Positions 34,525-54,525 of a DNA stretch of 64,000 nucleotides are shown piece after piece. The stretch is taken from NCBI RefSeq assembly GCF_007992435.1, contig NZ_BKAG01000001.1, forward strand, positions 186,001-250,000. The letters are read 5' to 3'. The notes below the pieces were generated by a model. That model was not told the DNA's origin. It was given only the letters and a program-made list of their open reading frames with translations, and made no database searches. A program made the translations under genes and the position numbers. The first letter of the stretch is position 1; the number at the start of each line of letters is the position of its first letter. The stretch is from Prosthecobacter gellanilyticus. GTDB taxonomy: Bacteria > Verrucomicrobiota > Verrucomicrobiia > Verrucomicrobiales > Verrucomicrobiaceae.

Positions 34525-35610
34525 ATGGTCGCCAGAACGTATTCAGCCACCCTTGTCGGCGTCGATGCTGTCGAGGTCGAGATCGAGTCCCATGATGGGG
34601 GTGGAAATCCCAAGATGTTTATTGTGGGTTTGCCCGATGCCTCGGTGAAGGAAAGTCGCGAGCGTGTCACCGCGGCCATCGCCTCCTGCGGCTTTGCCAT
34701 GAATGATGGTGTCACCACGGTGAATCTCGCGCCTGCGGATCTGCGCAAGGAGGGGCCGGGTTTTGACCTGCCCATCGCCATCTCATTGATCGCCCACCGC
34801 TCCAAAATCCCCATCAAGGTTCTCGCGGAGACAGCCATGATCGGTGAACTGGCCTTGAACGGCGAACTCCGTCCCGTGCGCGGCCTGCTGGCGGTGGCGC
34901 TGGAAGCACGGCGGAAAGGTCGCAAGCGCCTGCTTGTGCCGAAGCGCGCGGCGGTGGAGGCCAGCGTGGTCGCTGGCATCGACATCATCGGCGTGCAGCA
35001 TCTGCGTGAGGTGGTCGAGTACTTGAAAGGTGACATTGAGCTGACGCCAGAGCCCTGCAGGGCGGCTGAGTTTTTCATGGGCGCCTCTGTTTACGATATC
35101 GATTTTGCGGATGTGAAAGGCCAGGGCTATGCGAAGCGCGCCATCGAGGTGGCCGTGGCCGGCGGTCACAATCTTTTGATGGTGGGCCCGCCTGGAACAG
35201 GCAAGTCGATGATCGCGAAGCGGATCGGCACCATCATGCCGCCGATGACTGAGGAGGAGGCGATCGAGACCACGAAGATTCACAGCGCCAGCGGCCTTCT
35301 GACCGAGGAGCGCTCGTTTGTGGCCACGCGGCCATTTCGTTCTCCCCACCACACCATCAGTGATGCGGGCCTGCTCGGTGGCGGAAGCAATCCCGGCCCC
35401 GGAGAAGTATCGCTCGCCCACAATGGCGTGTTGTTCCTGGATGAACTGCCGGAGTTTCGCCGCAGTACTTTGGAGGTGATGCGCCAGCCGCTGGAGGATG
35501 GCAAAGTCACCATCTCCCGCGCCGCAGGCACCATGACCTTTCCTGCCACGGCTCTCCTGGTCGCCGCCATGAATCCTTGTCCATACGGGTTCGAGCGACT
35601 GCGGCGCTGA
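34525..35610 (+). pseudogene. comM: comM (yifB) cut off within the AAA+ domain
   Basis: The protein runs through the LonC-like N-terminal ComM domain (from [22 protein letters not shown]) and most of the AAA+ Mg-chelatase-like domain: Walker [10 protein letters not shown] near 231 and Walker [11 protein letters not shown] near 308. It ends abruptly: the conserved AAMNPCPCG motif is replaced by AAMNPCPYG plus six unrelated residues and a stop at 35608-35610. Normal ComM has about 500 residues, so 140-150 are missing. ComM is a helicase that helps integrate transformed DNA, so this strain probably lacks it. The break marks the start of the island. Confidence 0.9.
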
Positions 35611-36616: not shown

Positions 36617-37024
36617 TTAAGCCCGAAAACTGTTTTCTATGCTTTGGTAAACGAACTTCCAGTGCTCTAGGTCTCGGTGCACTTTGGCTTTACGGTTCCT
36701 CAGCACGTACATGGCATCAAGGATGGCAGGATCAGGCTCCTTTCCCACAGATTTCAGGAAGCGAACAAGTCCATCTAACCATTCTGGCTTTTTTTCCGGT
36801 ATCACTCGTTTAATTTGTGCCTGCTCTGTCTCTAAAAGATCCGCTAGAGTCGCATCAAGTGCCTCGGCAATTTTGAAGAGAGTATCGATAGATGGATTAC
36901 TTTCCTCATCGTTCTCCAATTTTGAAACAAGCCCCTTCGACACCTGAGCCATCTCGGCTAGCTGAGGAAGAGTGAGGTTTTTTTCGGTCCGAAGGGCTCG
37001 AAGGCGGGGGCCGAGGTTTCGCAT
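36617..37024 (-). CDS. XRE-family transcriptional repressor
   Basis: A 135-residue protein with an N-terminal helix-turn-helix (residues 5-58: RLRALRTEKNLTLPQLAEMAQV, then SKGLVSKLEN and IDTLFKIAEAL), followed by a helical C-terminal region. It is transcribed with the ImmA/IrrE peptidase and diverges from the DUF2779 operon. It probably represses both directions at the operator in between until the peptidase removes it. The start at 37024 is chosen because the helix-turn-helix begins there. Confidence 0.9.
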   Translation of the reverse strand: MRNLGPRLRALRTEKNLTLPQLAEMAQVSKGLVSKLENDEESNPSIDTLFKIAEALDATLADLLETEQAQIKRVIPEKKPEWLDGLVRFLKSVGKEPDPAILDAMYVLRNRKAKVHRDLEHWKFVYQSIENSFRA

Positions 37025-37128
37025 AATGAAAATTATGGGCTCGAAGTTCAAAATAGCAAGACCTTTACCCTTGACCGGTTCATTATATTGAACAACATGG
37101 ACACCGTTAGCAATCAAGTTGAACTCAC
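37025..37128. promoter_or_regulatory. Divergent promoter region with inverted-repeat operator
   Basis: Perfect inverted repeat GTTCA-N6-TGAAC at 37078-37093, overlapping an AT-rich core, plus related half-sites GTTCA near 37046 and GTTGAAC near 37118. It lies between the XRE gene and the divergent small genes, where an XRE repressor would bind. Confidence 0.6.
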
Positions 37129-37604: not shown

Positions 37605-37695
37605 GGGTTGGCCGCCCAATGTTTAATGATCTCACTATGCTAACAGCGAATCTCCATTGCGTGGTTTGCGGTTAGGCCGACAACCCCAAATTGCT

Positions 37696-39507
37696 ATGTA
37701 TCTTACGAAGTCTGACTTTAAAGTTGCTAGTGCCTGCCCAACCAAACTCTATTACAGGAAGCTTCAATATCCTTCGCTTCTTGATGCCGATCCCTTCTTG
37801 GAGTTTCTCGCTGACGGAGGATACATGATCGAAAAGATGGCTAAGCTCCTCTATCCTGAGGGCATTGAGATGGGCCAGTCTACAGGCCATGAGAGTGCAT
37901 TCAAAGATACCACGGACAGACTACAAGAAGCCGATATTGTGTTGTTCGAACCTACGGTTCTTGCCGGGAATCTCTTGGCTCGAATCGACATTTTAGTAAA
38001 GAAGGCGAACCACGTTAAAATCATCGAAGTCAAATCTTCCTCAGTCGATGCAATCGAAGGAGGTCCCAACCCGTTTCGAGGTTCCAAAGGAGGTATTCTG
38101 GCGAAGTGGCGTCCTTACCTTGAGGACGTCACCTTCCAAGCATTGGTTTTTAACCGAGCATTTCCCCAGCTCACTGTTGAACCGATGCTGTGTATTGTGG
38201 ACAAATCGGCTGCGGCCAATGAGGCCTGCACCTTGGACAAGTTCAATTTGAGGAAGGGGAGTGGTAGAAGGATGGCAGCCGATGTTGAGTATTCAGGAGA
38301 TCTTGCAGCCTTGAAAGATGCCCATGTGCTTGCATTCTACAACGTGGCGGGAGAGGTCGGCGAACTGACCACTGAGGTGGAAGCAGCTGCCGATGGCCTT
38401 GCTGCAACTTTGCGAGGTGAAGTACCCACTCGATCTACCCCGACGATCAATATGGGGTGCAAAAAGTGCGAATATCGAACTGATCCAAATAGCGGCCCGA
38501 GTGGCTTCACAGATTGTTGGGGCTCGCTTGCAAAGGTGCAACCTCATCTCTTTGACTTCGTAAGGTTAGACGGCTTGCGGCCGCCCGGGAAGAATGACCC
38601 TGTGTCTTTGTTGACAGGTCAGGGGACAGCCAGCTTGCTGGATATTCCAGAAGCTTGGTTGAGCGGAGCGTATGCGCCACGCCAACGGATTCAACTTACT
38701 CACACCTCACCGCCTCGGGAGTATCTGGACGAGAGTTTAAGAGCGAAGCTTCGTACCCATGACTATCCATTACATTTTATCGACTTTGAAGCTAGTCGAG
38801 TTGCGCTGCCTTATCATACGGGTATGCACCCCTATCAACAGGTGGCATTTCAGTGGAGTTGCCACACCATCCGCCAGCCAGGGGCTCCAGTCGAGCATTC
38901 CGAATGGATTAATCTAGAGCGTAGGTTTCCCAATTTTGGATTTGCCAAAACACTGCATAACGTTCTCGGGAACGAAGGTACGATCTACGTGTGGTCTCAC
39001 TTCGAGATGACAGCGCTCAAGGAGATTCGCAGCCATATGACGACGCTTTGTTTTGAAGATCCTGCATTGGCGACCTGGCTTGAAGTAATCACTGATCCCG
39101 ATAATCCGCGTGTCATCGACATGGAGAAACTGGCTGCGAAACATTATTTCCATCCACGGATGGGAGGGAGAACTTCAATCAAAGTGGTCCTTCCTGCCGT
39201 ATGGGAGAATGACCCAACACTTTGGCGGGATCCATTCTTTTCCAGATATTACAAAGTCGATGCCGATGGTAAAGTTCTTGATCCTTATAAAACTTTGACA
39301 CCGCTCCCAGTAAGTGACGTGGGCGAAGACCTTGGCGTCGTGATAGAGGGAACGGCTGCTATCAGGGCCTATCAGGATCTTGTGTTTGGTAGAGGCTCAA
39401 TAGACGAGCGTGCTCGGGAAGGGCTCAAAAAGCTTCTTCTTCAATACTGTGAACTCGACACGGCGGCGATGGTCATGATCTGGAAGCATTGGATTAGAGA
39501 CAACTAA
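37696..39507 (+). CDS. DUF2779-family nuclease: Cas4-like domain plus DEDD exonuclease
   Basis: A 603-residue protein. The first 280 residues look like a Cas4/AddB-type PD-(D/E)XK nuclease: Asp98 in RIDIL, Glu111 and Lys113 in EVKSSS, and four cysteines (C14, C255, C258, C274) placed as for an iron-sulfur cluster. The C-terminal half contains an RNase H-like exonuclease start, HFIDFEAS with Asp363 and Glu365, a VWSHFE block and a late YCELDT with Asp588. This matches DUF2779, a family frequent in defence islands. It is followed 39 bases later by the SLATT effector gene. An upstream start at 37657 is less likely. Confidence 0.82.
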   Translation: MYLTKSDFKVASACPTKLYYRKLQYPSLLDADPFLEFLADGGYMIEKMAKLLYPEGIEMGQSTGHESAFKDTTDRLQEADIVLFEPTVLAGNLLARIDILVKKANHVKIIEVKSSSVDAIEGGPNPFRGSKGGILAKWRPYLEDVTFQALVFNRAFPQLTVEPMLCIVDKSAAANEACTLDKFNLRKGSGRRMAADVEYSGDLAALKDAHVLAFYNVAGEVGELTTEVEAAADGLAATLRGEVPTRSTPTINMGCKKCEYRTDPNSGPSGFTDCWGSLAKVQPHLFDFVRLDGLRPPGKNDPVSLLTGQGTASLLDIPEAWLSGAYAPRQRIQLTHTSPPREYLDESLRAKLRTHDYPLHFIDFEASRVALPYHTGMHPYQQVAFQWSCHTIRQPGAPVEHSEWINLERRFPNFGFAKTLHNVLGNEGTIYVWSHFEMTALKEIRSHMTTLCFEDPALATWLEVITDPDNPRVIDMEKLAAKHYFHPRMGGRTSIKVVLPAVWENDPTLWRDPFFSRYYKVDADGKVLDPYKTLTPLPVSDVGEDLGVVIEGTAAIRAYQDLVFGRGSIDERAREGLKKLLLQYCELDTAAMVMIWKHWIRDN

Positions 39508-39546
39508 ACTTTCCACAACGCATAATGCTTCTCGTCTTGAACCGCG

Positions 39547-40458
39547 ATGAAATCCTGGGTCAAACTTCAAATCCTCAAAATAAAGCTTGGTCGGAAGAAT
39601 TCCGGTCTGTGCCGAGCTGTCCGGCGACAATTCAGTCGTCGCCGTCGCTTACTGAAAACCGCTGCGCAGCGAGAAAACGAGCGAGAATTTCGCGTGCGGC
39701 TGCGAAACCAACGTCAGCAAAAAAGCGATCTCCCACCTTACCTCACCAAGAACAATTGGGAACAAGAGTTGAACTACAAGCTATGGATTACCAAGGGTGC
39801 ACGCTTTGCGGCAGCACGCCGCTGTGAAGATCTGGACGCTGCTGGACTCTGGGCGACGACAATCCTTTCCGCCTATCTGATCATTGTGGGGCTCATTCCG
39901 TATATTCCACATCCCATTTTCAAGGACATCTCACAAGACTTGCTGAGCTTCGGAACAGCCGCGCTTTCCATTATTCTAATGGCAGTCACTCTTCTAATCT
40001 CAATGCGTCAGTATCCACTTCAAGCGAGAGCGTTTCACGAATGTTCGCTAAAGATAGGAGTTCTCTATGATCGCCTGCGTCAAGCGAAGGAAATTGAAAA
40101 TGAGGAGGCGAAGCGGGCGCAAATCGCCGCAGTGACGCGAGACTATGAAGAACTGCTTCCAAAATACGCCAACCACCAGCCGATTGACCTTGATATGTTT
40201 AAGACGCTGAAGGCTGAATACTTCAAGGTCGGCTGGTGGTGGTGTGTGCGGTGTAACTTCAGGTATTATAGACTAACGAAAGCTATGCTGCATTCGGTCA
40301 TCGCAGGTGGTGTGTTAATGGTTGTCATCATCGCCTTCAGAATAGACGCCATGGAAGGTTCATCTGCGTTGCCGCAAACGGCGAAGCCGAATGCCTCACT
40401 CGATGGCAAGATGGACCCCTACGCGGTTAACCGTATGTCAATTCTGCCTGGGAAATGA
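39547..40458 (+). CDS. SLATT-family membrane effector
   Basis: A 303-residue protein. A basic N-terminal 75 residues are followed by the SLATT pattern: helix with WITKGARFAAARRCED near 80-95, two membrane helices (about 98-121 and 132-154) and a long helix with FHECSLKIGVLYDRLRQAKE. A third hydrophobic segment lies near 248-268. SLATT proteins are predicted pore-forming effectors normally switched on by a nucleotide second messenger or a reverse-transcriptase partner; none is seen here. The neighbour is the DUF2779 nuclease on the same strand. Confidence 0.72.
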   Translation: MKSWVKLQILKIKLGRKNSGLCRAVRRQFSRRRRLLKTAAQRENEREFRVRLRNQRQQKSDLPPYLTKNNWEQELNYKLWITKGARFAAARRCEDLDAAGLWATTILSAYLIIVGLIPYIPHPIFKDISQDLLSFGTAALSIILMAVTLLISMRQYPLQARAFHECSLKIGVLYDRLRQAKEIENEEAKRAQIAAVTRDYEELLPKYANHQPIDLDMFKTLKAEYFKVGWWWCVRCNFRYYRLTKAMLHSVIAGGVLMVVIIAFRIDAMEGSSALPQTAKPNASLDGKMDPYAVNRMSILPGK

Positions 40459-40462
40459 TTGT

Positions 40463-42580
40463 TCACTCACCCTGAATTCTCCAGATCGACACATTCCTGA
40501 AGCTCGCCGTTGCTGGTAGGACACTTTCATCAAGGCGACCGGCTAATTCCTCGGAACGAGGCGCCCATAAGTTTGCGTTTAAGTGCATAGGAAGGTGTGG
40601 AAGCGGAGTGGGGTCCCATCCAACCCGTTGGTGGACGACTTTGTCGTCAACGGACCACGAAATAAGGCCCGGCCGCCACTCAATGGCGTAAAGATGATAG
40701 TCTTGAGTAGCATCAAAACCTAGTTCGATACGACAAGGTGAGCCTCGATAGCCAAAACCGATCGCTACCCCTTCGTCCCCTGGGTTGAAATAGACGTTCA
40801 CCAACATACGGTGGGGGTCATCACCGGTTAGCTCGATATCGATCTCTTGACGTGGGCAATCTCGATAAAGAAAGAAGCCAGTGACAAGGCCGGAACCGCG
40901 AGCAGCCTTTATCTCCGCTTCGAACCGCCCGTGCGCGAACGAATTGACAGTGGCGAAGGAACCTGAACGATACGGCCTACCTCTCGCTGTGACCTTCGTT
41001 AGTGCAAGATGGGCCCCCTCATCTGAATATGTCATCCCCTCCGGATCGAACCCTGCCTGATTCCCGGGAAATGTTCCGACGCTACTACGAAACAGTGGCG
41101 TTGCCGCTGTCATGGCTGCACGGCTAATAAGAGCGTAATCACGTGGCGTTTTGGGAGAGGTCTGTGACTCTTGCCATCCGCCTTTGGGGATTAGCGCCCA
41201 TGGTGAATCATCCATGGAAGAGGATCGCGCGCAGTCTGTTGATACGATCGGCTCAACCACTGAGCGGTCGTCGCGAAAAATTCGTAATTTACGCGGGGCA
41301 CCTATGGGAAATGCATGAATCGGCGGCGCGAGGCCAAGGAGAGAACAAAGTGGTTGCCACAAAACTTCGCTTTCCTCGTCGTCTGGAAGAAATGCGGTTC
41401 TAGATAGCGGAATACAACTTAATTCCAGCCTGGGAGGTATAACAGCGTTTGTCTCCAGCACAAACTTTACACCCGGATGCTTAATGGCAGCATGAAATGC
41501 GTCCTTCGAAAGCGGAACGTCAACGAGAGCATCGAACGTCTGAAGAAGGACCATCAGCTCGCTTTCCTGGATCACGTCCTCGTCACCATCAAAAACTCGA
41601 ACACGAAAACCAAGCATAGACAGAGCCATGGGCACACCTTCTTGATCACGACAAGCCGTCCAAGATATGATTGGCCCAGCGACCGCTCGCTCCGGCACCT
41701 CAAGAATATTTGCGTCGACTATCCCGGCACGCGCGAGGTATGGCAGAATAGAATAGGAATTATCAGAGCCTCCATCAAGTCGTTGTTTGATCGCGGGCAA
41801 AGAGAGTGCAAGGGCACCAAGTTCCTTGAAGCGACGGTTGATCCACATGTCAACGGGTCCGACGACTGGCATTGATCTCAATAGAGTCGAGGCACCTTCA
41901 CGAGAAAGGACGTAGCCCGAAAGAAACCACAGTCCTCTAATCGGGCGGAACAAAGCTTGGCAAACGTCTGCACGTTCTACTGTTCCACCTGCGTCGGAAT
42001 AAGAGAGATACAACAAATGCGGCCCTCCACGGTTTGCACAACGTTTGGATGCTGCGCGCCATCCTGCGTCGATCAGCGAGGCCGCTCCGCGTGTGAACCA
42101 AACATCATCTTCTAGCACCAAGACATGACCGTGACTTCCCTCAGCAATCATCTTCCATGATTCAATGTGCGACCTTGCAACGGCGACCTCTTGCCGAGTC
42201 ATTCTAAGTGGCTCGTTGGCACCGAAACACTCCTCTAGTCTTGCGTCTGGCTGAACATAAAGCTGATCACCCAAGAGATATGTCGGATCTACGTCAGCTG
42301 TAGCCGCTATGGCTCGACCGTCGCGAGCGTCTATAGCTGCCATGCGCCTTGCAATCGATGTTAGTGGCAAATCTTCGCAGGTATTGAACCGGCTCAGTTC
42401 ACGTAGCGTTCGCCGCAATCTCTGCGGCTGTCGGTTGAGATTCACTATTAAAATCATTCCGATCTTCCCCTTACGCCTACCGAAAGCCGAGATCCGCCCA
42501 CCAGGGAATAACGCCCACAGCATTCGCGACGCCCGGAACACAAATCTGCGAAAAAGACTAGAAACGTCATGAAGGTTCAT
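40463..42580 (-). CDS. Fusion: GT25 glycosyltransferase, sulfotransferase-like, GH16 glycosidase
   Basis: A 705-residue protein. Residues 40-270 resemble GT25 (LPS-type) transferases: VNLNRQPQRLRRTLRELS, HVLVLEDDVWF with an acidic motif, and PVDMWINRRF. Residues 300-395 resemble a sulfotransferase fold (VPMALSMLGFRV, FDALVDVP, PGVKFVLETNA) but lack a clear PAPS loop. Residues 490-700 match GH16: the catalytic motif QEIDIELTG has Glu579, Asp581 and Glu583. A transferase joined to a glycoside hydrolase/transglycosylase is unusual. It ends the three-gene operon. Confidence 0.7.
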   Translation of the reverse strand: MNLHDVSSLFRRFVFRASRMLWALFPGGRISAFGRRKGKIGMILIVNLNRQPQRLRRTLRELSRFNTCEDLPLTSIARRMAAIDARDGRAIAATADVDPTYLLGDQLYVQPDARLEECFGANEPLRMTRQEVAVARSHIESWKMIAEGSHGHVLVLEDDVWFTRGAASLIDAGWRAASKRCANRGGPHLLYLSYSDAGGTVERADVCQALFRPIRGLWFLSGYVLSREGASTLLRSMPVVGPVDMWINRRFKELGALALSLPAIKQRLDGGSDNSYSILPYLARAGIVDANILEVPERAVAGPIISWTACRDQEGVPMALSMLGFRVRVFDGDEDVIQESELMVLLQTFDALVDVPLSKDAFHAAIKHPGVKFVLETNAVIPPRLELSCIPLSRTAFLPDDEESEVLWQPLCSLLGLAPPIHAFPIGAPRKLRIFRDDRSVVEPIVSTDCARSSSMDDSPWALIPKGGWQESQTSPKTPRDYALISRAAMTAATPLFRSSVGTFPGNQAGFDPEGMTYSDEGAHLALTKVTARGRPYRSGSFATVNSFAHGRFEAEIKAARGSGLVTGFFLYRDCPRQEIDIELTGDDPHRMLVNVYFNPGDEGVAIGFGYRGSPCRIELGFDATQDYHLYAIEWRPGLISWSVDDKVVHQRVGWDPTPLPHLPMHLNANLWAPRSEELAGRLDESVLPATASFRNVSIWRIQGE

Positions 42581-42606
42581 CGTGGTAGCTCCAATGACAC
42601 CGGGCT

Positions 42607-43461
42607 TTAACAGCCGTATACGTTACGCCAATTGCGGTCATCACTCCGATATGAGAGATTCCATCGCATTTCTGCGATCGAGTCCCAGTTTCGCAATATC
42701 TCAAAATCTAGGGGAAGGCCTGACAGCTCCAACTGACGTGCGTGAGCTGCCAATGCAGCAGTCAAGTTGCCAGGGCCGGTCGTAGATTGTATCTCGAGCG
42801 TGCCGTTAGTATTGAGCAGCTTTTCGGTGGCTCGAACTAGCGCGGACCGAAGGATTGGGTGACCCGCCGGCCCAGCGATAGGATCGTTGTTGACATAGAA
42901 GATTCGTTTGCCGCTTGGTAGATCCGGTCGCCAGATATCCGCCGCCGCCATCATTCCGCCAATCGTCATGTCATAACACAGCGGCTGCAGCTTGAGCCTC
43001 TCATCACGGAACATATACTTCCAACCATCACCAATGAGGACATCATCCGCATCGATATACATGCCTCCTTTCTCGAGTATAAAGCACATACGCAAATAGT
43101 CGCAACGCATTGCAGGATGACGACAACGCTCGAATGCGCTGAGCTCACGTTCACCATAGAACTCCGCAATGTACTCTGCCGCGCTGGTATCGTCGAACAT
43201 GTAAAACTCGAATCCCTCGTCTGCCAGAGAATCCCAACTTTCGAGGCAACCACGAACGTCGTCTGGCAGATTGAGTGGATCATGCCAGTATCTTAGCAGT
43301 CGCTTAGGTATAGACGTTTGGCTTGTGTTGAAATCCTCGATCACGTTCCTCGAGCCTTCACATTGTTTGAGAATGATATCTCTAATGAATGCAGATCGAA
43401 GGTCATCGCACTCCTCGAAACCGGGCGGGTATAGGTCCATGTGTTTTGAAATGGATATCAA
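42607..43461 (-). CDS. Glycosyltransferase with DXD motif (OCH1-like)
   Basis: A 284-residue protein. IPKRLLRYWHDPLNLPDDV and, near residue 115, RHPAMRCDYLRMCFILEKGG followed by YIDADDV match the Gly_transf_sug/OCH1-like families, where D-x-D binds the metal and sugar nucleotide. It overlaps the carbamoyltransferase gene by four bases and ends 26 bases before the fusion gene, so all three form one operon. The sugar and acceptor are unknown. Confidence 0.82.
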   Translation of the reverse strand: MISISKHMDLYPPGFEECDDLRSAFIRDIILKQCEGSRNVIEDFNTSQTSIPKRLLRYWHDPLNLPDDVRGCLESWDSLADEGFEFYMFDDTSAAEYIAEFYGERELSAFERCRHPAMRCDYLRMCFILEKGGMYIDADDVLIGDGWKYMFRDERLKLQPLCYDMTIGGMMAAADIWRPDLPSGKRIFYVNNDPIAGPAGHPILRSALVRATEKLLNTNGTLEIQSTTGPGNLTAALAAHARQLELSGLPLDFEILRNWDSIAEMRWNLSYRSDDRNWRNVYGC

Positions 43462-45083
43462 TCCAAGGACTTATGACGCGAAGAACTGGTGAGATAAGCC
43501 TGATATCGTGGGGACTTTTTTAACAGGTATGCTTGACCATCGACAATAAACCCGTCAAGACCATGCCCTATTGAATATGCCTCGAGATCAGTCATGTTGT
43601 TAATGAACCCCTTTCCTTTGAAGTTGAGAGATGTGTTGCAAAGCACCCCATAGCCTGTGCGTTTTTTGAACGCTGAGAGCAGCTCGTGGAGCTCCTTATT
43701 GCTTGTGGATGTGACCGTCTGGAGACGGGCTGTTTTATTGACATGGGTGACAGCCGCGAGATCACCAATTCTTGCATGATATGTATATAACATATGCGGG
43801 CTATCATGATCACATCCAAAGCATTTCTCAGCATCCTCGTCGAGGCACACAGGGGCGATAGGACGAAATTGCTCACGCTGCTTGATCTCGTTTAGCCGCA
43901 CTCTAGTCTCGTCTCTAAATGGAGCAGCGAGTATGGACCTATTACCGAGCGCGCGAGGGCCAATTTCATATCTTCCGTGTGCCCACCCCAAGATTAAATC
44001 ATTCGCCAGCATGTCAGCGACTCTGTCGTTATTCTTCGAATACACGTCATAACTGTTTAGATCGCTGGGAACCCCTGAGCGAAAGCTGAGGCCTGAGTAA
44101 ACGTTCCAATTGATCTTTGGGTTACCGGTATAGCGAAATTGCGCGTCTATGGCAGTACCTATAGCTGCACCCGAATCGTTCGCCACAGGAGGGACAAATA
44201 CCTCGGAAAACAATTCCGTCTCTCGCCACTTTGTATTCCAGTCGCAATTAAGACCACACCCACCCGCAATTATTAACGGTAGTCTTTTGTTCAGCTTGGC
44301 CCTGGCAACATGGTGAAACCTTTCAAATATTGCGTCACTGTAGATTCCTGCGAAATCGCGAAATTCGGGGTCTTCCAAGCCCGCATCAAGGTAAGGCATG
44401 TCCGAAAGCGCCTCGTAATCACTTAGTTTCCGGTATGGACCATCGAGCAGAAAACTGAGCAACTGCCTCTCCTTCTCAGTGGCTGTAGAACGTCGCGAGA
44501 AGGAGGCTAGCGCCATCAATTTTCCTGCATCTGACGAGCGGGGATATGGCCCATCTTTGGGGAACGTAGGATCAGCCAAGCCATATAGTAGCCCATATCG
44601 ATTTCCTGTCTGATTCAGAACATCGGCGATCAGTGTGATGTTGAGTTCGTGGTCTATTTCATAAAATGCACCCATCTCTCCTTCCCATATCAATGCATAA
44701 CACTCAGTGCCTTGCGGTAGCGCAGACATCCCAAAAGCACAGAGTATGTGTGACCTCTCATGGGAGGAGGAAAAATAGTCGGCACGTCCACGAAAAAGCT
44801 TACCTTTGTCTATTATCGCACCTTCGCGTGATAGACCTCGATATCCAGCATTCGTGTGTGAGCCGAATAAAAATTCATGGTGATCCCGCGGCCACCAGCC
44901 CCCCATACAGATGATGTCAGGAACAGCACTGAGCTCACCAACAGCATTTAAAACGTCGGTGACTGATACTGCCGAATATCGGTAGTTAGAATCCTTTTCA
45001 GCCTCGATCGAAAACTCCAAGCAGGAGTCTTGAAGAAAGGCAATAGCGCCATCGTGACCCGGGTTATAAGATAGTATTCTCAC
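43458..45083 (-). CDS. NodU/CmcH-family carbamoyltransferase
   Basis: A 541-residue protein of the NodU/TobZ family, which transfers a carbamoyl group from carbamoyl phosphate to a sugar or natural-product hydroxyl. Seen are the start NPGHDGAIAFLQDSCLEF, a metal-binding HERSH motif (HxxxH), the ATP-grasp-like IIAGGCGLNCDWN, the classical GRYEIGPRALGNRSIL block and, near the end, REQFRPIAPV and YGVLCNTSLNFKGKGFI. The enzyme is first in an operon with two glycosyltransferases, which suggests a carbamoylated glycan product. The DNA is more AT-rich than the host's. Confidence 0.9.
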   Translation of the reverse strand: MRILSYNPGHDGAIAFLQDSCLEFSIEAEKDSNYRYSAVSVTDVLNAVGELSAVPDIICMGGWWPRDHHEFLFGSHTNAGYRGLSREGAIIDKGKLFRGRADYFSSSHERSHILCAFGMSALPQGTECYALIWEGEMGAFYEIDHELNITLIADVLNQTGNRYGLLYGLADPTFPKDGPYPRSSDAGKLMALASFSRRSTATEKERQLLSFLLDGPYRKLSDYEALSDMPYLDAGLEDPEFRDFAGIYSDAIFERFHHVARAKLNKRLPLIIAGGCGLNCDWNTKWRETELFSEVFVPPVANDSGAAIGTAIDAQFRYTGNPKINWNVYSGLSFRSGVPSDLNSYDVYSKNNDRVADMLANDLILGWAHGRYEIGPRALGNRSILAAPFRDETRVRLNEIKQREQFRPIAPVCLDEDAEKCFGCDHDSPHMLYTYHARIGDLAAVTHVNKTARLQTVTSTSNKELHELLSAFKKRTGYGVLCNTSLNFKGKGFINNMTDLEAYSIGHGLDGFIVDGQAYLLKKSPRYQAYLTSSSRHKSLD

Positions 45084-45240: not shown

Positions 45241-46335
45241 TTACCCGGGCACTAATTCCGAAAGTTCGTAACGACGCTTCAGGTTGTTACCCACCACACG
45301 CATCCAGATGCCGTCGAACTGAAGGCGACCGGCCACAATCCCGCCGGAGATGCCTAGCTTCGTGGCGAGTTCATGCGCTGCGCTGACTGGCATTTTGCCG
45401 CCATGATTCTCCCTGACCTTGCGAATTTCCTCTGAGGGGATCAAGAACTCCCGCGCAAACAGGTTGGCATCTGTCTCGAGCGCATCCTCCCGGCCTTCAT
45501 ATTCCACCAGCCATTCACGCTTCAGCTTACCTTGCAAGACGTGGCGGGCTTCGTGAAAGAAAGTGAACCAGAAATGACCGTCATCCCTGTAACGGCCTGT
45601 TTGCACAATGAGAGCGGTGCTGTTCATCAGTTGGCTAGCGGCCCCGCTTACGTGAGTTCCTGGAAGCTCCGGTAGAAGAACATAGGCAACCCCACAGGCG
45701 TTGCATTCTTTCTGAATGACTGCAACCCACTCCCTCACCGGCAGTGTTGTGGCTTTCTTGAGCCGCTCCAGCGCTTCGAGGAAAGCTGCTTCGTCATAGG
45801 GGGCACAGGCCTGCTTGCGGGCTTCCAGCTCCGCCTTACGCAGCCACACGGCCACAGCCTCGGGGTCACTTTGCAGCTTGGGTGATTTACGAAAGGCAGC
45901 TACCGGCCCGCCCCAGACTTCTTTCCAGCCCTTCACGTTGGCGCAGCCAAAGAAGTGCAGCACCTCCATCATGGTTTGTTTCATGTCTTTCGTCTTGGAA
46001 AGCCACCCCTTTTTCTGCATCACTGCGATTGGAAGACTCTTTAGCCACTCCTCGTCCACCTCCAGACGGTCAGCGGCACGCTGGCGGGCCAGAAGCTCAC
46101 GATATTGTGTCTCCAGGTTCATCCAAAAGTAGGCTGGCACACCCAGCACGCGTTCGAGTTCCAGGGCCGTGTCCGCAGTGAGAGCGGCTTTGGCCTGGAT
46201 AATTTCATTTATGGTTTTGATCGGCCTTCCCATGCGCCGGGCCAGTTCGGATTGCGTCAGACCCATCGCATCGAGGGTCTCTGCAAGCGTCTCTCCTGGC
46301 GGGGAGGCGTAGTCGGGTTGGAAGTTGGGGCTCAT
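45241..46335 (-). CDS. HigA-type antitoxin fused to an ImmA/IrrE peptidase
   Basis: A 364-residue protein. Residues 15-70 form a VapI/HigA-type helix-turn-helix (GETLAETLDAMGLTQSELAR then RRMGRPIKTINEI). From about residue 190 it continues as an ImmA/IrrE domain with FFHEARHVLQG (HEARH zinc motif) and a second acidic block EDALETDANLFAREFLIP. It follows a HigB-type toxin gene, an order (toxin first) typical of higBA, and the fusion adds a peptidase to the antitoxin. It should bind the toxin and the operator, with the peptidase perhaps controlling release. Confidence 0.85.
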   Translation of the reverse strand: MSPNFQPDYASPPGETLAETLDAMGLTQSELARRMGRPIKTINEIIQAKAALTADTALELERVLGVPAYFWMNLETQYRELLARQRAADRLEVDEEWLKSLPIAVMQKKGWLSKTKDMKQTMMEVLHFFGCANVKGWKEVWGGPVAAFRKSPKLQSDPEAVAVWLRKAELEARKQACAPYDEAAFLEALERLKKATTLPVREWVAVIQKECNACGVAYVLLPELPGTHVSGAASQLMNSTALIVQTGRYRDDGHFWFTFFHEARHVLQGKLKREWLVEYEGREDALETDANLFAREFLIPSEEIRKVRENHGGKMPVSAAHELATKLGISGGIVAGRLQFDGIWMRVVGNNLKRRYELSELVPG

Positions 46336-47963: not shown

Positions 47964-49223
47964 TCACTCAGATCGCTGCGAGAGAGCATTGATTAAAAAA
48001 TCGGCGAGGCGTTCTTCGTCATACGCTTTGCCGTGCGTGTGCATCGCTTGGGAGAGTGCGGCGGACCAAGGCGTCGAGACTGGGTTGCCTGTGAGGGGGC
48101 GGCTCTCTAGCGGCATGGCTGCTTGGTAGGATTCAAGGTCGAAGAGCCAGGGCTTTGCTCCAAACTCAGTGAAGACACGTTCGGCTATTGCTATTCCCGG
48201 CCAGTCGAAATCACCATGATACCAGAGTGCGCAGCCTGCATCACGAAGTCGGCGCATAAGATGGCGGGCGGCGTGGCACGGTTCGCCGTTGACGCATATG
48301 ATCGGCGGACAACGGAGACCGAGATACGAGGCCGCGAGGGAGATGATGGTAGGGTTTTCACAAACATACACCTCAGGCGGGGAGGTGATTCGACTCCAGT
48401 CAGCTGCCCAAAGCATACGTGGGGTGAGATGCACCGGCTGTAGATCCGCGGAGGTCATGGCGATGAGTTGGCAAAGTGATGCTTCGCCTCGGAGGCCGAG
48501 ATTAAAAGTCAGCACCGGAGCGCTGAGGTCGTCACCGATGACTCCGACGGCGGCCCAGAGATCTCGACGCTCGTCGGAGCGGACGGGCATTGGGCGCTCA
48601 AAGCGTAGCGCCAGTCCGCGAAGAACGAGCGTCGAGAGGGGTGTGGCTGCATCCAGGGCGTGGCTACTACCGCAAAACTCGGCAGCGACACTGGTTAGCG
48701 GACGCTCTTCAACCAGCGGCAGTGCCTGGAGCAAGCGGGCAGCGGTTAGGAGCATCTTCATGCCTATCTCGGTGTAGCCTTTGCAATGACGACGAAGGCT
48801 GCCATCACGCCGCAGTGATTCGAGCCATTCGTCGCAATGCGGAAAAGCGTGAGCACCGATAAGTGGTGTCATCTGCGGCCAGAAATGCTGCCAAGCCAGC
48901 CGCTTCTCCAAACTAGCGAGTTTTTCGTCCGGCACGGGGCCATGCAACGCAGTGAGGATTTCATTCCAGTCAGCGGGAAGCTGCGCTAACGAGAGAGCAG
49001 CGCCCAGCTTCGCCAAATCATAACGCAATGTGGATGAGTGATGATTCACCGGCTGACGCAGCAGGCGGGCATGGTGAAGCCGCTCCTCGTCAGTGGGACG
49101 CGGCAGCGTCACCGCGGTCGGGAAGGGCTTTCCAGCCCCTCGATATGTTTCCAGTTTAGCGATGAAGCGATTCCATCCCTTCGTGTCGAAAATGGCTCGG
49201 AGCCGTTGTTGTGGACTGCTCAT
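47964..49223 (-). CDS. jetD: Wadjet JetD nuclease subunit (TIGR02679/DUF2399-like)
   Basis: A 419-residue protein from the ATG at 49223, overlapping the end of jetC by four bases. The conserved C-terminal part contains VNGEPCHAARHLMRR and WYHGDFDWPGIAIAE; the D-F-D acidic pair in a Toprim-like fold is the catalytic centre of JetD. In Wadjet, JetABC extrudes DNA loops and JetD cuts closed circular DNA, eliminating plasmids. A longer frame up to 49439 lies entirely within jetC and is rejected. Confidence 0.85.
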   Translation of the reverse strand: MSSPQQRLRAIFDTKGWNRFIAKLETYRGAGKPFPTAVTLPRPTDEERLHHARLLRQPVNHHSSTLRYDLAKLGAALSLAQLPADWNEILTALHGPVPDEKLASLEKRLAWQHFWPQMTPLIGAHAFPHCDEWLESLRRDGSLRRHCKGYTEIGMKMLLTAARLLQALPLVEERPLTSVAAEFCGSSHALDAATPLSTLVLRGLALRFERPMPVRSDERRDLWAAVGVIGDDLSAPVLTFNLGLRGEASLCQLIAMTSADLQPVHLTPRMLWAADWSRITSPPEVYVCENPTIISLAASYLGLRCPPIICVNGEPCHAARHLMRRLRDAGCALWYHGDFDWPGIAIAERVFTEFGAKPWLFDLESYQAAMPLESRPLTGNPVSTPWSAALSQAMHTHGKAYDEERLADFLINALSQRSE

Positions 49224-52200
49224 GCGGAGGGAGACGCTGTGAGCCGAAACTCTGGCGTGTCGGGCACGGGAGCGATCTGGCGGGTTTTTCCATTCCAAAC
49301 CCAGCGGGTGGCCGCGATAGCATCGGCGCTGGCGACAAGCTGGTAAATGGCAATGCCGGAGATGGTGGCGTGAGCACCCCATTCGCGCTCGCTCGTCATG
49401 ACGAGATCGAGGTCGAATGCCTCCAGCAGCCCCATGCAACTGCCGCGTGTTGGCTTGTCCATGCCGGCGAATGCCTCGTCGAGCAGGATGAATCTCGGCG
49501 CGTGACTGGCGGCGGAGCGGTAGTGCGAGGCGGCGGCCGCCATCTGCGGAATCGTCAAGGTAAGGGCTTTCTCACCCTGAGAAAGCGTGCCGTAGCGCTT
49601 CTTGTTCAATCGCTCCCATTTGCCCTGGTGGCGCCGTTCGGCGGTGTAGGCGTGCCATTCACGGTAATCGAGTGCTTGAAGCAACTGCTCGGACGCAGAC
49701 GCCGTGGGATGATTGATGCGTTCGCTCTGAATGAGCTGATGGAGACAGTCTCCCACGTCCTTGCGTTCTTTCTCTGTCCAGGTGCCGTGATCCACAAGGA
49801 GCAATCGTCGCACCGCAGGCAATCCGGGCGGCAATCCCTCGCTCTTCGGCTCCCACTGGAGTCGCAAGGTGACGCCGAGAGTGGTGGCGCAGCGGCCCAT
49901 CTCCTCATTCATGAGCGCGGTCTGCTTTTGCGCCGCTTCAATGAGGTCTTGCAGCTTGGACGAGACTTCGGAGACGAGATGGCGGTCGATGATGTCACGC
50001 TCCTTTTCACCAAGCAGCCGGTCATGTGTGGCACGCTCCGCTTCCACGGCAGCGAGACAGGCAGCAGGTCTCAAGTGATGGCCTTGATAACGGCACACGA
50101 CGAGGGTCAGCCCGCCACTGAGCACCTGGTGCTCAATCTCGCAGGTCGTGCCGGTGCGGTTGCTCAACTCGGTGATTTGCGTATTGAGCAGGTTGATGCG
50201 GTTCGTCCACGCCTCCTCGCTGATATTGGCATCAGGCAGTTCTTTGCCGATCCGGCGGGCGATGGTCGCCGCACGAGTGGGTGCCCAGGAGTCTTTTTCG
50301 ATGTCGGTCAGATCGGGGTGTGCCTCGGGAAAAAGATCAAACAGCAAAGGTACACGCAATGCCTGGATGGCCTCGTCACGCTCACTACTGGTGCGGTTCA
50401 CATTTTCTTGAGCGGGCTGGAGTGAAGACTGCACCACAATCAAATGGTGATCCGCTTCGGAAGCTTCTCGATTGGCTTGGTTGAGCCGTTTCTGAGCCGA
50501 TTCCTTTTCAGACAGTGCCTCTGTCAGCTTTTCCTGATACTCGGTGACGGATGAGCCATGCGATGCGGCGAGCGCTTCGTATGCCTGATTGGCGGAAATG
50601 GCGGCGGTTCGGATCGAGGAGGCATCGCTGGTTTCTTTGGCATGTGTTTCGGCCGCCTGACGTTCGCGGCTCTGTGTGACGGCGAGTTGGTTGGAAGCGG
50701 TGATCCATGCTTGCACCGTTCCCCAGAGTGTCGCCATCGCCTTGTCATAGGGAGGCCAGGCGGGCCGCAGATCAGCTAGATGATCGAGGTGATCCCGATA
50801 GCCGAGGTGTGTCGCTTCCTGTCGGAGTGATTCGGTGGCTTCAGCCGTCTTTTGACGGGCACGATGCGTTCTTTGCACGGCCTCACTGTGAGCTTTGCTG
50901 GCCGCATCTTGTTTGATGTGGGCCTCGGTGCGCAGGGTCAGGTGATTGGCGATCAAGAGATCCTTCGGAGCGCTGTTCGACTCCGCCATGACTACCTCCT
51001 CACGCTCATTGAGCTGGTTTGATTCCTGCTGAAGGAGGCTTTCGTCTTCACCGAGCCGCAGCAGCGCTTCTGTGACTTCCGCGAGCCGCCTTTGACGTGC
51101 GATCTCACGACTGCTGGCTCCGAGGTGCTCCGCCTGTGGTTTGCAACCACGGCCAGCCACCGGCCCGAGCTGCCAACGCCCATCAAGGGCAACCCAATGC
51201 TCCGCAGAGCCTGCTCCAGCGCCGATATGCCGCAGGACGCGGCGCAGAGTTTCCTCGGATAAACCGCTTTCGGTGTTCAAATCGGGGATGAGCCAGCTTT
51301 CGAGCGTTTCGCCGCGCAGAGCTGATTCATCACGTCCCGTCAAAAATGTATCCTGTGGGAAATCACCCATCAGCGAGCCATCAGGCGTGATCCAGGCATC
51401 CAGCAGGCCTGCGGCCTCCAGCGCAGCTTCGAGTCCGGTGCGCTGGGTGTCCGTGAGAGTGGGCTGAAACTCACAAACCTGCCAAAGCGGTGCGCCAGCG
51501 CGACCTTGGCGTGCCGCTGTGTCACGTGTGCGTGGCGCGGGTGGTGGCGGTGACTGCTGAGCCAGTGACGCCTGTTCTTGACGAAGTTCTTCACGATCAC
51601 GATGAAGTTGGTCACGCCTCGTTTTCAGGTCGGCTCTCGCCGTAGCGAGTGTGGTCGCCTCAGCGTTCCTGGCGCTGTATAAACTCGCCGCTAGAACGCG
51701 ATGCTGTTCCTCCGCTGTCTCCAGCCAGTCTTCAAAAGCAGGCGCAAGCTCCGACCACGCTGGCATCGCCAGCCAGCGCAGGCCATCACGCCAAGCCGCA
51801 TAGTTCGCCGCCAGTGTCTTCAACGCGGCATCAGCAGCTTCCTCATGTTTCCGCACATCTTCGCGATGAGCTTCGACGGCCGATGAACATTGATCTTCGT
51901 GGACTTGAGCCGCGGCTTGTTCAGTCTGTGCCTTTTTGATGACGGCGAGGCCACCTTCGATCTGCTGCAGACGATGCTCATGATCGTCGGCGAGCCTTTT
52001 GAAGTCGGCTTTGAGCTTTTCCAGCCGCATCGAGTCTGCGGGCCATGCGTTCGCATCTGGAATGAGTTTTGCATGGTCGCTGCTGAATCCGGCAGCGTGT
52101 GAAAGGTGCATTGCGCCTTTCCAATCGTGATCTCGCTGTTGCTGATGCTTTTGTTGCTCATCAAAAGATGCCGACAATAGCTGCTGCTCGTGTTTGTGTT

Positions 52201-53302
52201 GTTGTGCCGCGTTTTGAGCACGCACTTCAGCCAGGGATGCCTGCTTGGTTTTATCTAGAGCCAGTTCGCGAGCAATTTCGAGCCGCTTGGCATCGCCTGC
52301 CGCGGGGCTGGTGCTCAGCGCGGTGTATCTTGCCTCCGCCGCCGTGTAGTGATCGTGCGCCAACTGCATCTGGTCTGTGGTTTCGGATTTACGTGCCTCC
52401 GCAGCCTGGATGCTCTCCTCAATGGCGTTCACCTTTCGCTGCGCAGACTCATAAGCGGAATGCGTGGTGCGCACACGCTCTGCGCGGAGCTGAATCGCCA
52501 TTTGAAGATACGTCTGATAGCCTGACTGAAAGCCCTCCAGCGAATCCCGAAGGCTTTGCAAAGAGGCGAACTGCTGACGTAGGTCATCCAGCTGCTTGAA
52601 GGCATCTGCCACCGGCCCCACCACATCTTCTGAGAGCGGCGGCAGCGCATTCGACAGCGCGGTGAAGATGGTTTTTTCATCCAGCTTCTTCGAGAGCTGC
52701 GGAGCACGCAGACGAATTAACAGCTCAATGAGCGCAGCATAGCGCCCGCGACCGAGGGAAAAAAGGCGGCGATCAATCTCCGCACGATAATCCTTGGCCG
52801 AGACAAAGAAACACGAGTCACCGAGCACCTCGATGAGTCGCTCCTTGCTGTGTGGATAAGCGCCTTCGAGCAACTGAAAGTCCCGCCCCACCCGCTGCTC
52901 GGTGATGAAGAACCAGCGTTTCGGCTGATCGTCACCTCCGCGCACACCTCTCATACCGCAGCCGAGCGTGAGATAGTGCTCCACGCCTTGCTCATCACGT
53001 CGGCCAAACTCGATCCAGGTGTAGCCCGTGCGCTGTTCGTGCTCATCCATGAGCAGATGCCACACGAGCTGCCGAGCCGGGTCCGCGTCCGGCTCCACGC
53101 GATGGGATGCGATCTCTCCATCAAACAAAAACGGAAGCTGCAAGGCGAGCACGCGAGATTTGCCGGTGCCGTTGTTGCCTCGGACGAGCAGGCGGCCTCG
53201 CTCATACCAAAACTCCTGGTTCTCGTATTTGAAAAGGTTGATCAACCCGCTGCGCAGCGGCTGGAAGCGTGTCATTTCAGGTGAGGGAAGCATGGGAGTC
53301 AA
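49220..53302 (-). CDS. jetC: Wadjet JetC SMC-like ATPase (TIGR02680-like)
   Basis: A 1360-residue SMC/MukB-like ATPase. Walker A GNNGTGKS is at residues 42-49; long coiled coils occupy about 250-500 and 750-1020; a C-terminal head with LSQGEKALTLT (signature-like) and FILLDEAFAGMD (Walker B) lies near 1240-1290. It loads on DNA with JetA and JetB and powers loop extrusion. It overlaps jetB at its start and jetD at its end by four bases each. Confidence 0.92.
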   Translation of the reverse strand: MTPMLPSPEMTRFQPLRSGLINLFKYENQEFWYERGRLLVRGNNGTGKSRVLALQLPFLFDGEIASHRVEPDADPARQLVWHLLMDEHEQRTGYTWIEFGRRDEQGVEHYLTLGCGMRGVRGGDDQPKRWFFITEQRVGRDFQLLEGAYPHSKERLIEVLGDSCFFVSAKDYRAEIDRRLFSLGRGRYAALIELLIRLRAPQLSKKLDEKTIFTALSNALPPLSEDVVGPVADAFKQLDDLRQQFASLQSLRDSLEGFQSGYQTYLQMAIQLRAERVRTTHSAYESAQRKVNAIEESIQAAEARKSETTDQMQLAHDHYTAAEARYTALSTSPAAGDAKRLEIARELALDKTKQASLAEVRAQNAAQQHKHEQQLLSASFDEQQKHQQQRDHDWKGAMHLSHAAGFSSDHAKLIPDANAWPADSMRLEKLKADFKRLADDHEHRLQQIEGGLAVIKKAQTEQAAAQVHEDQCSSAVEAHREDVRKHEEAADAALKTLAANYAAWRDGLRWLAMPAWSELAPAFEDWLETAEEQHRVLAASLYSARNAEATTLATARADLKTRRDQLHRDREELRQEQASLAQQSPPPPAPRTRDTAARQGRAGAPLWQVCEFQPTLTDTQRTGLEAALEAAGLLDAWITPDGSLMGDFPQDTFLTGRDESALRGETLESWLIPDLNTESGLSEETLRRVLRHIGAGAGSAEHWVALDGRWQLGPVAGRGCKPQAEHLGASSREIARQRRLAEVTEALLRLGEDESLLQQESNQLNEREEVVMAESNSAPKDLLIANHLTLRTEAHIKQDAASKAHSEAVQRTHRARQKTAEATESLRQEATHLGYRDHLDHLADLRPAWPPYDKAMATLWGTVQAWITASNQLAVTQSRERQAAETHAKETSDASSIRTAAISANQAYEALAASHGSSVTEYQEKLTEALSEKESAQKRLNQANREASEADHHLIVVQSSLQPAQENVNRTSSERDEAIQALRVPLLFDLFPEAHPDLTDIEKDSWAPTRAATIARRIGKELPDANISEEAWTNRINLLNTQITELSNRTGTTCEIEHQVLSGGLTLVVCRYQGHHLRPAACLAAVEAERATHDRLLGEKERDIIDRHLVSEVSSKLQDLIEAAQKQTALMNEEMGRCATTLGVTLRLQWEPKSEGLPPGLPAVRRLLLVDHGTWTEKERKDVGDCLHQLIQSERINHPTASASEQLLQALDYREWHAYTAERRHQGKWERLNKKRYGTLSQGEKALTLTIPQMAAAASHYRSAASHAPRFILLDEAFAGMDKPTRGSCMGLLEAFDLDLVMTSEREWGAHATISGIAIYQLVASADAIAATRWVWNGKTRQIAPVPDTPEFRLTASPSA

Positions 53303-54525
53303 GATTCGGTGACACGCGGTTTTAATTCATGCCGGTAACGATGGATGGCAGCCATGACGATCACTCCGCCCTGCACGTGCCGCACGAGATCAAGGCTGGC
53401 AAGGCGGCGAAGCACCTCGCGGGCTAGAGCCTCCTCGGCGCCCTGAGCAGCGGTTTCTTTTCGCCAGAAGCCTTTGTTTTTCGCCGCCTGCTCAGCCAGG
53501 AATCGCTCCACCATGCTGATGGGCACTATTTCTCCTGGCTCGGTGAGACGCAGGTCACCGAGAAACTCCGCCGTGAGCAGCGTGGCATGGCCATCTGTGC
53601 CCTCCTCTGGCAATCCGAGGTCCGTGCAGTCACCTGTTCTGTCGGATAAGGCGATGCCGTCTTTTCTATCCTCCGGTTCCAGCCCCGTTGCATCGACGAG
53701 CGCTTTGATGAGATGCGGGCGTTGCTTCAGCAGGTAGTCGAGTGTGTCCGGCGGCAGATCTCCAGGTGTGTAAAGCACGGGATCATCCAGCAGGCGACGA
53801 TTGAGGTGATGGCGGATACGTTGATTTCGCTGATCTGCCTCATCAATGACCGGCTCGGCCACCAATGGGGCGAGCCGGGCGCTCCAGTCTTTTTCCAGGA
53901 TGGAGCTGGGAGACCTACGTGCGGCCAGCAGTCGATAAAGGATGAGGTGATGCACATCATAGAGCACCTCTTGCTCTCGCTGGCGGAGGAACCGTTCCTC
54001 ATCCCCATCCACCTGCGTAAGAGCACGCAGCTCCATGAGCAGCCGCAGCGCCGCCACCAGATCACGCCGGGAATCCGCCGCATCCAGATCAAAGGTCAGC
54101 GTGGCAAAGGCAGGCTCATCTTTCCACAGCTCGATGATCCCGCGTGCCAGTTCGCCGAGCGTCGTCTGCCGCTCACCACGCACCAGCACGGCCAGCGCCA
54201 GACACAGCAGCACATAGCGTCGGCGTGAGAAAGGCGGCTCATCCTTTTTCGAGAGCCGGGCCGGATGCGTTGCATCCGCCCATCTGGCAGGAACCTTGTA
54301 GAGCCTGGCGCTCTCGGATGTCACATCCAGTGTCCAGCCCGTGTGCCGAGACAACCACTGCCGCAGCGGTTCGGCCTGACGTCGGACCTTGGCAAAGTCC
54401 TCGCGATGATCCACATGCTCTGCCACGAGCAGAGGACGCCGCAGCAAGGCACGCAGCGCCTCCTGCCGCTCCTGCTCTGAGGCGCGGTGAAAGTCGGATG
54501 CATCTTGGGAGGTCGTCTTCATCAC
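53299..54525 (-). CDS. jetB: Wadjet JetB subunit (TIGR02678/DUF2398-like)
   Basis: A 408-residue protein, DUF2398-like: EQERQEALRALLRRPLLVAE near the start, FSRRRYVLLCLALAVL and LYDVHHLILYRLLAARR, and a C-terminal helical domain ending VRHVQGGVIVMAAIHRYRHELKPR. It is a kleisin-associated winged-helix partner of the SMC-like JetC. It overlaps jetA and jetC by four bases on both sides. Confidence 0.86.
   Translation of the reverse strand: MMKTTSQDASDFHRASEQERQEALRALLRRPLLVAEHVDHREDFAKVRRQAEPLRQWLSRHTGWTLDVTSESARLYKVPARWADATHPARLSKKDEPPFSRRRYVLLCLALAVLVRGERQTTLGELARGIIELWKDEPAFATLTFDLDAADSRRDLVAALRLLMELRALTQVDGDEERFLRQREQEVLYDVHHLILYRLLAARRSPSSILEKDWSARLAPLVAEPVIDEADQRNQRIRHHLNRRLLDDPVLYTPGDLPPDTLDYLLKQRPHLIKALVDATGLEPEDRKDGIALSDRTGDCTDLGLPEEGTDGHATLLTAEFLGDLRLTEPGEIVPISMVERFLAEQAAKNKGFWRKETAAQGAEEALAREVLRRLASLDLVRHVQGGVIVMAAIHRYRHELKPRVTES

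Follow-up and report, generated by a model that had tools for sequence, protein, structure and literature searches.

A rare mobile module pairing a GT32-like glycosyltransferase with a GT25-pseudosulfotransferase-GH16 fusion keeps company with bacterial defence genes and may edit a glycan

Introduction

What might an operon that combines glycosyltransferases, a glycoside hydrolase domain and a carbamoyltransferase be doing among anti-phage defence genes? The question is raised by a 64,000-nucleotide stretch of Prosthecobacter gellanilyticus DNA (Verrucomicrobiota; contig NZ_BKAG01000001.1, positions 186,001 to 250,000; hereafter the window), in which an O-carbamoyltransferase gene, a GT32-like glycosyltransferase gene and a gene for a fusion of GT25, sulfotransferase-like and GH16 domains lie in a row (Table 1). 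A reading made from the sequence alone had proposed that this operon makes a carbamoylated, possibly secreted oligosaccharide in bacteria carrying the island. Beyond that reading, the main clue to function is the defence-island setting, and the explanation that we favour, at a probability of about 0.36, is that the module is cargo of defence islands and plasmids that would remodel a lipid-linked surface glycan from the cytosol and thereby mask a phage receptor.

The operon and its proteins

All three frames are complete and are read from the minus strand, the carbamoyltransferase first, then the GT32-like protein and last the fusion; the first two overlap by 4 bp, a gap of 26 bp precedes the third, and together they form one operon, as the sequence-only reading had it. 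The family assignments of the three proteins come from Pfam and NCBIfam models. That reading was also right in holding the DNA to be more AT-rich than the host, with a GC content of 0.510 for the core genes against 0.598 for positions 1-36000 of the window.

The fusion protein is conserved from end to end in an alignment of 14 members, so that an assembly artefact is unlikely; searches for the same architecture returned full-length relatives, and with 17 fusion sequences at hand, an assembly error or a chance fusion was rejected. The GT25 assignment follows from Glyco_transf_25 (PF01755) matches in 14/14 members and an EDD motif in 17/17 sequences, and a profile of the fusion family recovered procollagen galactosyltransferase 1 among solved structures at 3.4e-6. 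For the GH16 domain, Foldseek recognized the lichenase 1gbg (1.5e-11) and EIDxE is kept in 17/17 fusions, which together give both the fold and the ExDxE signature of the family; the nearest solved relatives of the fusion are beta-glucanases. The middle segment of the window protein itself had no Pfam match; Sulfotransfer_4 (PF17784) hits to this segment, counted up to E<=1 and reaching 1.2e-5 at best, came from 10 of the 14 aligned sequences. A middle-domain model built from one relative (L007; predicted local distance difference test score, pLDDT, 59.6) resembled P-loop folds, with a sugar kinase first (1.4e-3), the sulfotransferase SgdX2 second (1.7e-3) and none below 1e-3 for this low-confidence model.

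Active sulfotransferases carry a P-loop of the K/R-T-G-T type that binds 3'-phosphoadenosine 5'-phosphosulfate (PAPS) and an arginine that binds its 3'-phosphate. In the fusions, the canonical P-loop is replaced in 17/17 sequences, FGxxxSGxSSL (with variants) standing in one clade and being gone in the other, and in the 14-member alignment no arginine behind the KFI strand is conserved. An active sulfotransferase was rejected because the P-loop motif is lost, and on the same ground the middle domain is taken as a probable scaffold with a putative sulfotransferase-like fold. The full-length AlphaFold model, built with 7 sequences, reached a pLDDT of 59.3, so that only the GH16 structural match is firm; that of the separate middle-domain model is weak. 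Of the three-domain architecture first proposed, the GT25 domain and the GH16 domain with its intact EIDIE have thus held, and the middle domain is putatively sulfotransferase-like by way of its relatives' profile matches and not by a canonical P-loop.

The carbamoyltransferase contains both the N- and C-terminal Carbam_trans domains (PF16861 at 1e-52, PF02543 at 3.5e-23) and a conserved HxxxH site, presumably metal-binding, which place it among the O-carbamoyltransferases; the 11 aligned sequences, from which a broken Rhizorhabdus copy was excluded, share 223 invariant positions, including GHDG (9-12) and HERSH (108-112). The GT32-like protein matches Gly_transf_sug (PF04488) at 3.8e-6, with a score of 27.9 that is slightly over the cut-off of 23, and its best structural relative at 6.3e-6 is an initiation-specific alpha-1,6-mannosyltransferase (9n3s), which we take to be OCH1; D137 and D139 of the DxD motif are invariant in 17/17 sequences, in keeping with GT32 membership. 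Because the catalytic motifs are kept (GT25, GH16 and GT32 17/17 each, carbamoyltransferase 11/11), all four enzymatic parts look active.

Distribution, inheritance and mobility

Full-length relatives of the fusion share 35-65% identity with it and are spread over Alphaproteobacteria, Enterobacteriaceae, Aliarcobacter, a genome of another Verrucomicrobiota order and a Planctomycetes metagenome-assembled genome (MAG), and several of them sit on plasmids or islands. A scan of genome contigs gave 22 pattern-matching stretches, 7 of which encode relatives, six at full length and one (L008) broken. Among 72,556 plasmid records, 9 match over at least 80% of the fusion protein, and at least 4 of 5,426 E. 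coli genomes carry it, two being records of one strain name; the E. coli count is a lower bound, because the Klebsiella gene used as query finds near copies only and the Citrobacter variant, run in 'distant' mode, gave zero E. coli matches and missed even the four known copies. In sampled genomes, the full-length fusion was found in 0/383 others of the window's class (where partial matches in 75 genomes were nearly always of GH16 only), 0/287 others of its phylum, 1/55 other relatives, 1/384 genomes of Neorhizobium's class, 1/397 of Neorhizobium's phylum and 0/295 others in the phylum of an Actinomycetota MAG; these samples overlap and omit the query genome, and scoring was limited, except among the 55 relatives, to the top two or three candidates of each genome. 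The module is rare, and the first three of these counts fit the earlier proposal that it is confined to island carriers. In the genome of the window, a pattern search located the EUB338-III probe site once, which points to a probable Verrucomicrobiota host. A phage origin was rejected, with no match in 50,697 phage records, and viral contigs gave one pattern-matching stretch and no encoded relative in a search sensitive to close relatives only.

Counting four Aliarcobacter plasmids once and the E. coli islands once, the module occupies 18 distinct loci, and the GT32 gene adjoins the fusion in 17 of them. The trees of both proteins show the same two-clade split with 100/100 support and the carbamoyltransferase tree agrees, so the genes are inherited together; branches within the clades are often poorly resolved and L042 forms a long branch. 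As the closest kin of the window fusion are in the Planctomycetes MAG and Rhizobiaceae, transfer across phyla would have occurred if that MAG contig is rightly binned. Plasmids of Klebsiella and Citrobacter carry related modules, as does a chromosomal island of E. coli; 4/9 fusion-bearing plasmids were typed as conjugative, and the E. coli copies are chromosomal, beside VirB-type conjugation genes (three of four copies read).

Some copies are altered. On Rhizorhabdus wittichii pSWIT02 (L040, 11187-13748) an IS4-type transposase gene separates two pieces of the carbamoyltransferase, and the GT32 and fusion frames are open. An Aliarcobacter plasmid (L060, 8062-8911) has its GT32 gene annotated as two short open reading frames (ORFs) and its fusion annotated whole, and a genome of the same order as the window's holds a possible remnant of the module (L010, G278:C17:2595-2861), a GT25 segment that shares 47% identity with the fusion and whose frame is broken by three stops.

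The carbamoyltransferase gene is present in 12/18 loci, upstream in all 8 clade A loci and downstream in 4 clade B loci, the interrupted Rhizorhabdus copy being one of the latter. Of the 17 loci that have the GT32-fusion pair, 5 yielded no such gene, and neither did the L008 fragment; it is therefore an optional part of the module. Searches of the complete W01 and W02 plasmids and of genomes G418 and G625 gave no match at 1e-20, the E. coli absence covering 32 kb only. The carbamoylation foreseen by the sequence-only reading is hence supported by the gene where it occurs and is not obligatory.

These patterns bear on whether the operon makes a dedicated carbamoylated oligosaccharide or small natural product, possibly secreted. 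The nearest solved relatives of the carbamoyltransferase (7xb6, GdmN, TobZ and also novobiocin carbamoyltransferase) include antibiotic enzymes and speak for it; however, in the lists read no gene for export, resistance or additional biosynthetic steps is a constant neighbour of the module, the carbamoyltransferase gene was not found at 5/17 pair loci, and a hydropathy scan showed no secretion signal, all of which make such a product improbable. The secreted oligosaccharide of the first reading thus finds no backing. Flippase, polymerase and polysaccharide export genes were not noticed in annotations and ORF lists (partly by eye), and a capsule or exopolysaccharide cluster, for which no supporting genes were noticed, was likewise set aside.

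Defence neighbourhood

Within 10 kb, 11/18 loci have PADLOC matches at E<=1e-60 (hand-picked genes included, and not control-matched), in families that comprise Wadjet, CBASS (cyclic oligonucleotide-based antiphage signalling system), Gabija, Lit, Shedu, Lamassu-like, AbiD and DUF262. Besides the window, they include a CBASS cyclase and two-transmembrane (2TM) effector on one side with GajA and GajB on the other (L002), a cyclase with a 2TM effector (L005) or a TIR effector (L056), GajA and GajB (L057), PDC-S06 and PtuA (L059), Lit and SduA (L042), AbiD (L040), LmuB (L044) and a DUF262 protein (L038). Five more loci (L004, L006, L039, L041, L043) have weaker matches, from 5e-50 to 7e-14.

For the control comparison, the 96 nearest ORFs of at least 150 aa, called mechanically at the 18 loci, were set against 18 control regions with 102 proteins chosen and 99 scanned, three being dropped as very long (L070:10373-15736, L071:2630-12184, L074:6601-11136). 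Controls and loci did not pair off one to one: two regions each came from four genomes, three regions were short (4-12 kb), and L004, L005, L008 and L044 went without a control. Among the six nearest ORFs, matches at E<=1e-60 occur in at least 8/18 loci versus about 2/18 control regions (one-sided Fisher p=0.03), a linkage that is recurrent and above control, as expected of a defence-island gene, and whose enrichment is modest. Because per-protein E-values were taken for 36 hand-chosen neighbours, 8/18 is a lower bound and 11/18 is unmatched to control. At E<=1e-10, 248 PADLOC families matched in the test set versus 70 in the control, models rather than proteins being counted, and the control matches at 1e-60 were of DpdF-type and PD-T4-6-type only, as judged from the sort order of the best 25 of the 70 families.

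Could the module instead be an accessory modifier of a surface or storage glycan, serving niche or host interaction and merely riding islands that gather defence genes? Such islands gather cargo of unrelated kinds: next to L038 there are metabolic and transport genes as well as the DUF262 gene, and the neighbours of L003 look housekeeping-like by eye. The module is also rare, and the control comparison reaches only p=0.03. Against this stand the strong matches at 11 loci and the weaker ones at five more, and we regard a role outside defence as unlikely.

The window island

In the window, the operon is flanked on one side by the DUF2779/SLATT_5 pair and on the other by the helix-turn-helix (HTH) peptidase gene and then the Wadjet-like operon, whose DUF2397 and DUF2398 proteins are presumably JetA and JetB. 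The DUF2779 protein has a Cas4-like N-terminal part by eye and the two-transmembrane SLATT_5 protein follows it directly; the two form a possible two-gene defence unit. An HTH protein (capH match) and a peptidase (capP match) at 35670-37117 resemble CapH/CapP of CBASS, with no cyclase noticed nearby.

The operon lies within an island of about 72 kb that splits comM, with its 3' junction region at G000:C1:293149-293814 (L089) and imperfect copies of an Asn-Pro-Cys-Pro-x-Gly-Phe (NPCPxGF) stretch at both ends. In earlier studies, comM is described as a target of Tn6022-like and Tsy transposons (PMC10293859) and linked with AbaR islands (PMC7508600). A resolvase-type gene lies at window positions 62455-63285 and a second recombinase gene, identified by eye, at contig positions 254521-256329; no Tn7-type gene was seen by eye in the ORF beginnings of the island. 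Besides the entire defence cluster, the island contains genes that look by eye like UmuD, catalase and recombinase genes. An unusually long ORF of 1393 codons (G000:C1:288437-292618; L088/L089), whose start looks by eye like a Y-family (UmuC/DinB-like) polymerase, adjoins a UmuD/LexA-like gene at the comM junction.

Table 1. Positions of the operon, its encoded domains and neighbouring features (window positions unless marked as contig)
Feature	Position	Strand	Details
O-carbamoyltransferase gene (TobZ/NodU/GdmN type)	43458..45083	-	541 aa, GTG start, operon gene 1
GT32/OCH1-like glycosyltransferase gene with DxD at residues 137-139	42607..43461	-	284 aa
Three-domain fusion gene	40463..42580	-	705 aa; 17 fusion sequences known including window copy
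N-terminal basic amphipathic helix, residues 1-36	42473..42580	-	hydrophobic moments; low-confidence model
GT25 domain, residues 44-245, LEDD at 156-159	41846..42451	-	PF01755 8.2e-7
Degenerate sulfotransferase-like domain, residues 286-500, without canonical P-loop	41081..41725	-	PF17784 in relatives
GH16 domain, residues 516-676, catalytic EIDIE 579-583	40553..41035	-	PF00722 2.3e-27
HTH + IrrE-type peptidase protein (PD-Lambda-2_B-like)	45241..46335	-	
Wadjet (JetABCD-like) operon, four genes	47964..56153	-	JetC2 E 0, JetD2 1e-108; TIGR02680/TIGR02679; DUF2397, DUF2398
DUF2779 protein + SLATT_5 membrane effector, convergent with fusion	37657..40458	+	
comM/yifB 5' part, cut by island	34525..35607	+	361 codons to first stop
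comM 3' part with Mg_chelatase_C	contig 293494-293787	same strand as 5' part	about 72 kb downstream

Localisation

In the 45 core proteins from 17 loci, a hydropathy scan (no dedicated predictor) found no clear signal peptide or membrane span, the highest 19-residue means being 1.65 (L039, residue 315) and 1.64 (L038, residue 34). At the N-terminus of the fusion, the best of the first 16 windows has a hydrophobic moment among the highest 7% of that same protein in 16/17 fusions, with L056 as the exception (84th percentile), and a helix spans residues 7-22 in the low-confidence model; this helix is a probable membrane-surface anchor. We infer that the core proteins are cytosolic and the fusion peripheral to the membrane. 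A cytosolic GH16 is unusual, since canonical bacterial GH16 enzymes are secreted.

A cytosolic location together with defence-gene neighbours would also suit an intracellular defence, in which, during infection, a protein, nucleic acid or lipid precursor of phage or host would receive a sugar tag from the transferases, GH16 would take this sugar off or shift it, by way of editing or as a safety catch, and in some lineages a carbamoyl group would shield the tag. Between the clades, GH16 is the most conserved part of the fusion (identity 0.49, versus 0.42 for GT25 and 0.22 for the fastest-evolving middle domain), and on plasmids the GT25-middle part always comes with GH16 (9/9) and was never found without it, as expected of a pair that adds and removes. 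However, within clade A the GT25 domain is as conserved as GH16 (0.70 vs 0.66), no effector, whether sensor, nuclease or another, regularly accompanies the module, and the amphipathic helix suggests a membrane site. Taken alone, such tagging is rather unlikely, and the carbamoyl protection equally so; an intracellular target is nonetheless nearly as likely as surface masking.

Discussion

Under the surface-masking explanation that we favour, a mobile module of a GT32-like protein and the GT25-pseudosulfotransferase-GH16 fusion, with the O-carbamoyltransferase as an option, would travel with defence islands and plasmids, and its proteins would remain in the cytosol, where the basic N-terminal helix would dock the fusion on the inner membrane. 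The two transferases might then draw on nucleotide sugars of the host to attach one or two sugar residues, through a presumed linkage, to a lipid-linked glycan, most likely lipid A-core or lipooligosaccharide; the GH16 domain would trim or transglycosylate their product, the carbamoyltransferase, where present, would cap a hydroxyl, and the changed surface glycan would conceal a receptor from a phage or other invader. What the data establish are the genes, their domains and catalytic motifs, the joint inheritance, the mobility and the defence-gene neighbours.

A two-gene core working in very different hosts would call for a common acceptor and common sugar donors. A lipid-linked surface glycan is favoured because the plasmid hosts known by name are diderm, as is E. 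coli, and because bacterial GT25 and GT32 enzymes use cytosolic sugar nucleotides; the Pfam label of GT25 itself reads 'LPS biosynthesis' (LPS, lipopolysaccharide). A further reason is the precedent of WapO, named as the putative enzyme of a known O-carbamoylation of the LPS core (PMC8005017).

Several observations weigh against this explanation. The annotations and ORF lists read (partly by eye) showed no LPS gene next to the module, and it is hard to see what a cytosolic GH16 would do to the LPS core. One relative (L007) lies on a 7-kb contig of the Actinomycetota MAG, with a GC content of 0.505 versus 0.557 for another contig of that MAG, and would speak against an LPS acceptor if it is correctly binned. 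The hydropathy peaks of 1.64-1.65 in two fusions are near the usual membrane-span cut, and 5/9 fusion-bearing plasmids were typed as non-mobilizable. Moreover, L003, L007 and L008 are without a known defence gene in the neighbours examined, PADLOC kinase, helicase and ABC ATPase models match housekeeping genes too, and the modest enrichment was measured with loosely matched controls, so that the neighbourhood is support and not proof.

Most described defence systems target nucleic acids, NAD, membranes or translation. If our explanation is true, a transferable glycan-editing module would add a defence chemistry that is hardly represented among them, mobile between very different bacteria with two genes. 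It is tentatively conceivable that this amounts to a new type of immunity, in which a mobile pair of cytosolic transferases with a fused glycosidase or transglycosylase and an optional O-carbamoyl cap blocks phages or rival mobile elements; just as tentatively, it would do so by rewriting a single widespread glycan, its hosts ranging from Verrucomicrobiota to Enterobacteriaceae. The Klebsiella and Citrobacter plasmid modules and the E. coli island module would give this a bearing on phage therapy, and the capabilities of cytosolic GH16 enzymes would be concerned as well.

Each single domain is already known, and the papers listed by the literature searches, among which subscription journals were mostly absent, showed no description of the three-domain fusion, its GT32 pairing, the apparently cytosolic GH16 or the defence company. 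The module resembles the anti-phage systems of PADLOC-DB 2.0.0 in genomic company and mobility, whereas no model there matches any of the three operon proteins at E<=0.01. With TobZ, GdmN, NodU and WapO (the last likened without sequence comparison), the carbamoyltransferase shares both Pfam domains, GHDG and HxxxH, but no antibiotic, Nod-factor or LPS gene set was noticed beside it and it is optional in a mobile module. The middle domain is possibly akin to Sulfotransfer_4, by profile matches in 10 of the 14 relatives and a putative P-loop-like fold, and differs in lacking the canonical PAPS-binding P-loop. GT25 transferases such as procollagen galactosyltransferase, and presumably LPS transferases of the Lex2B/LpsA type, have the PF01755 domain and EDD motif in common with the module, whose GT25 is instead fused to sulfotransferase-like and GH16 domains in a mobile, defence-associated setting. 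Lichenases and the XTH (xyloglucan endotransglucosylase/hydrolase) and Crh transglycosylases, finally, have the same fold and EIDxE motif as the GH16 domain of the fusion, which in contrast looks cytosolic and sits behind a transferase.

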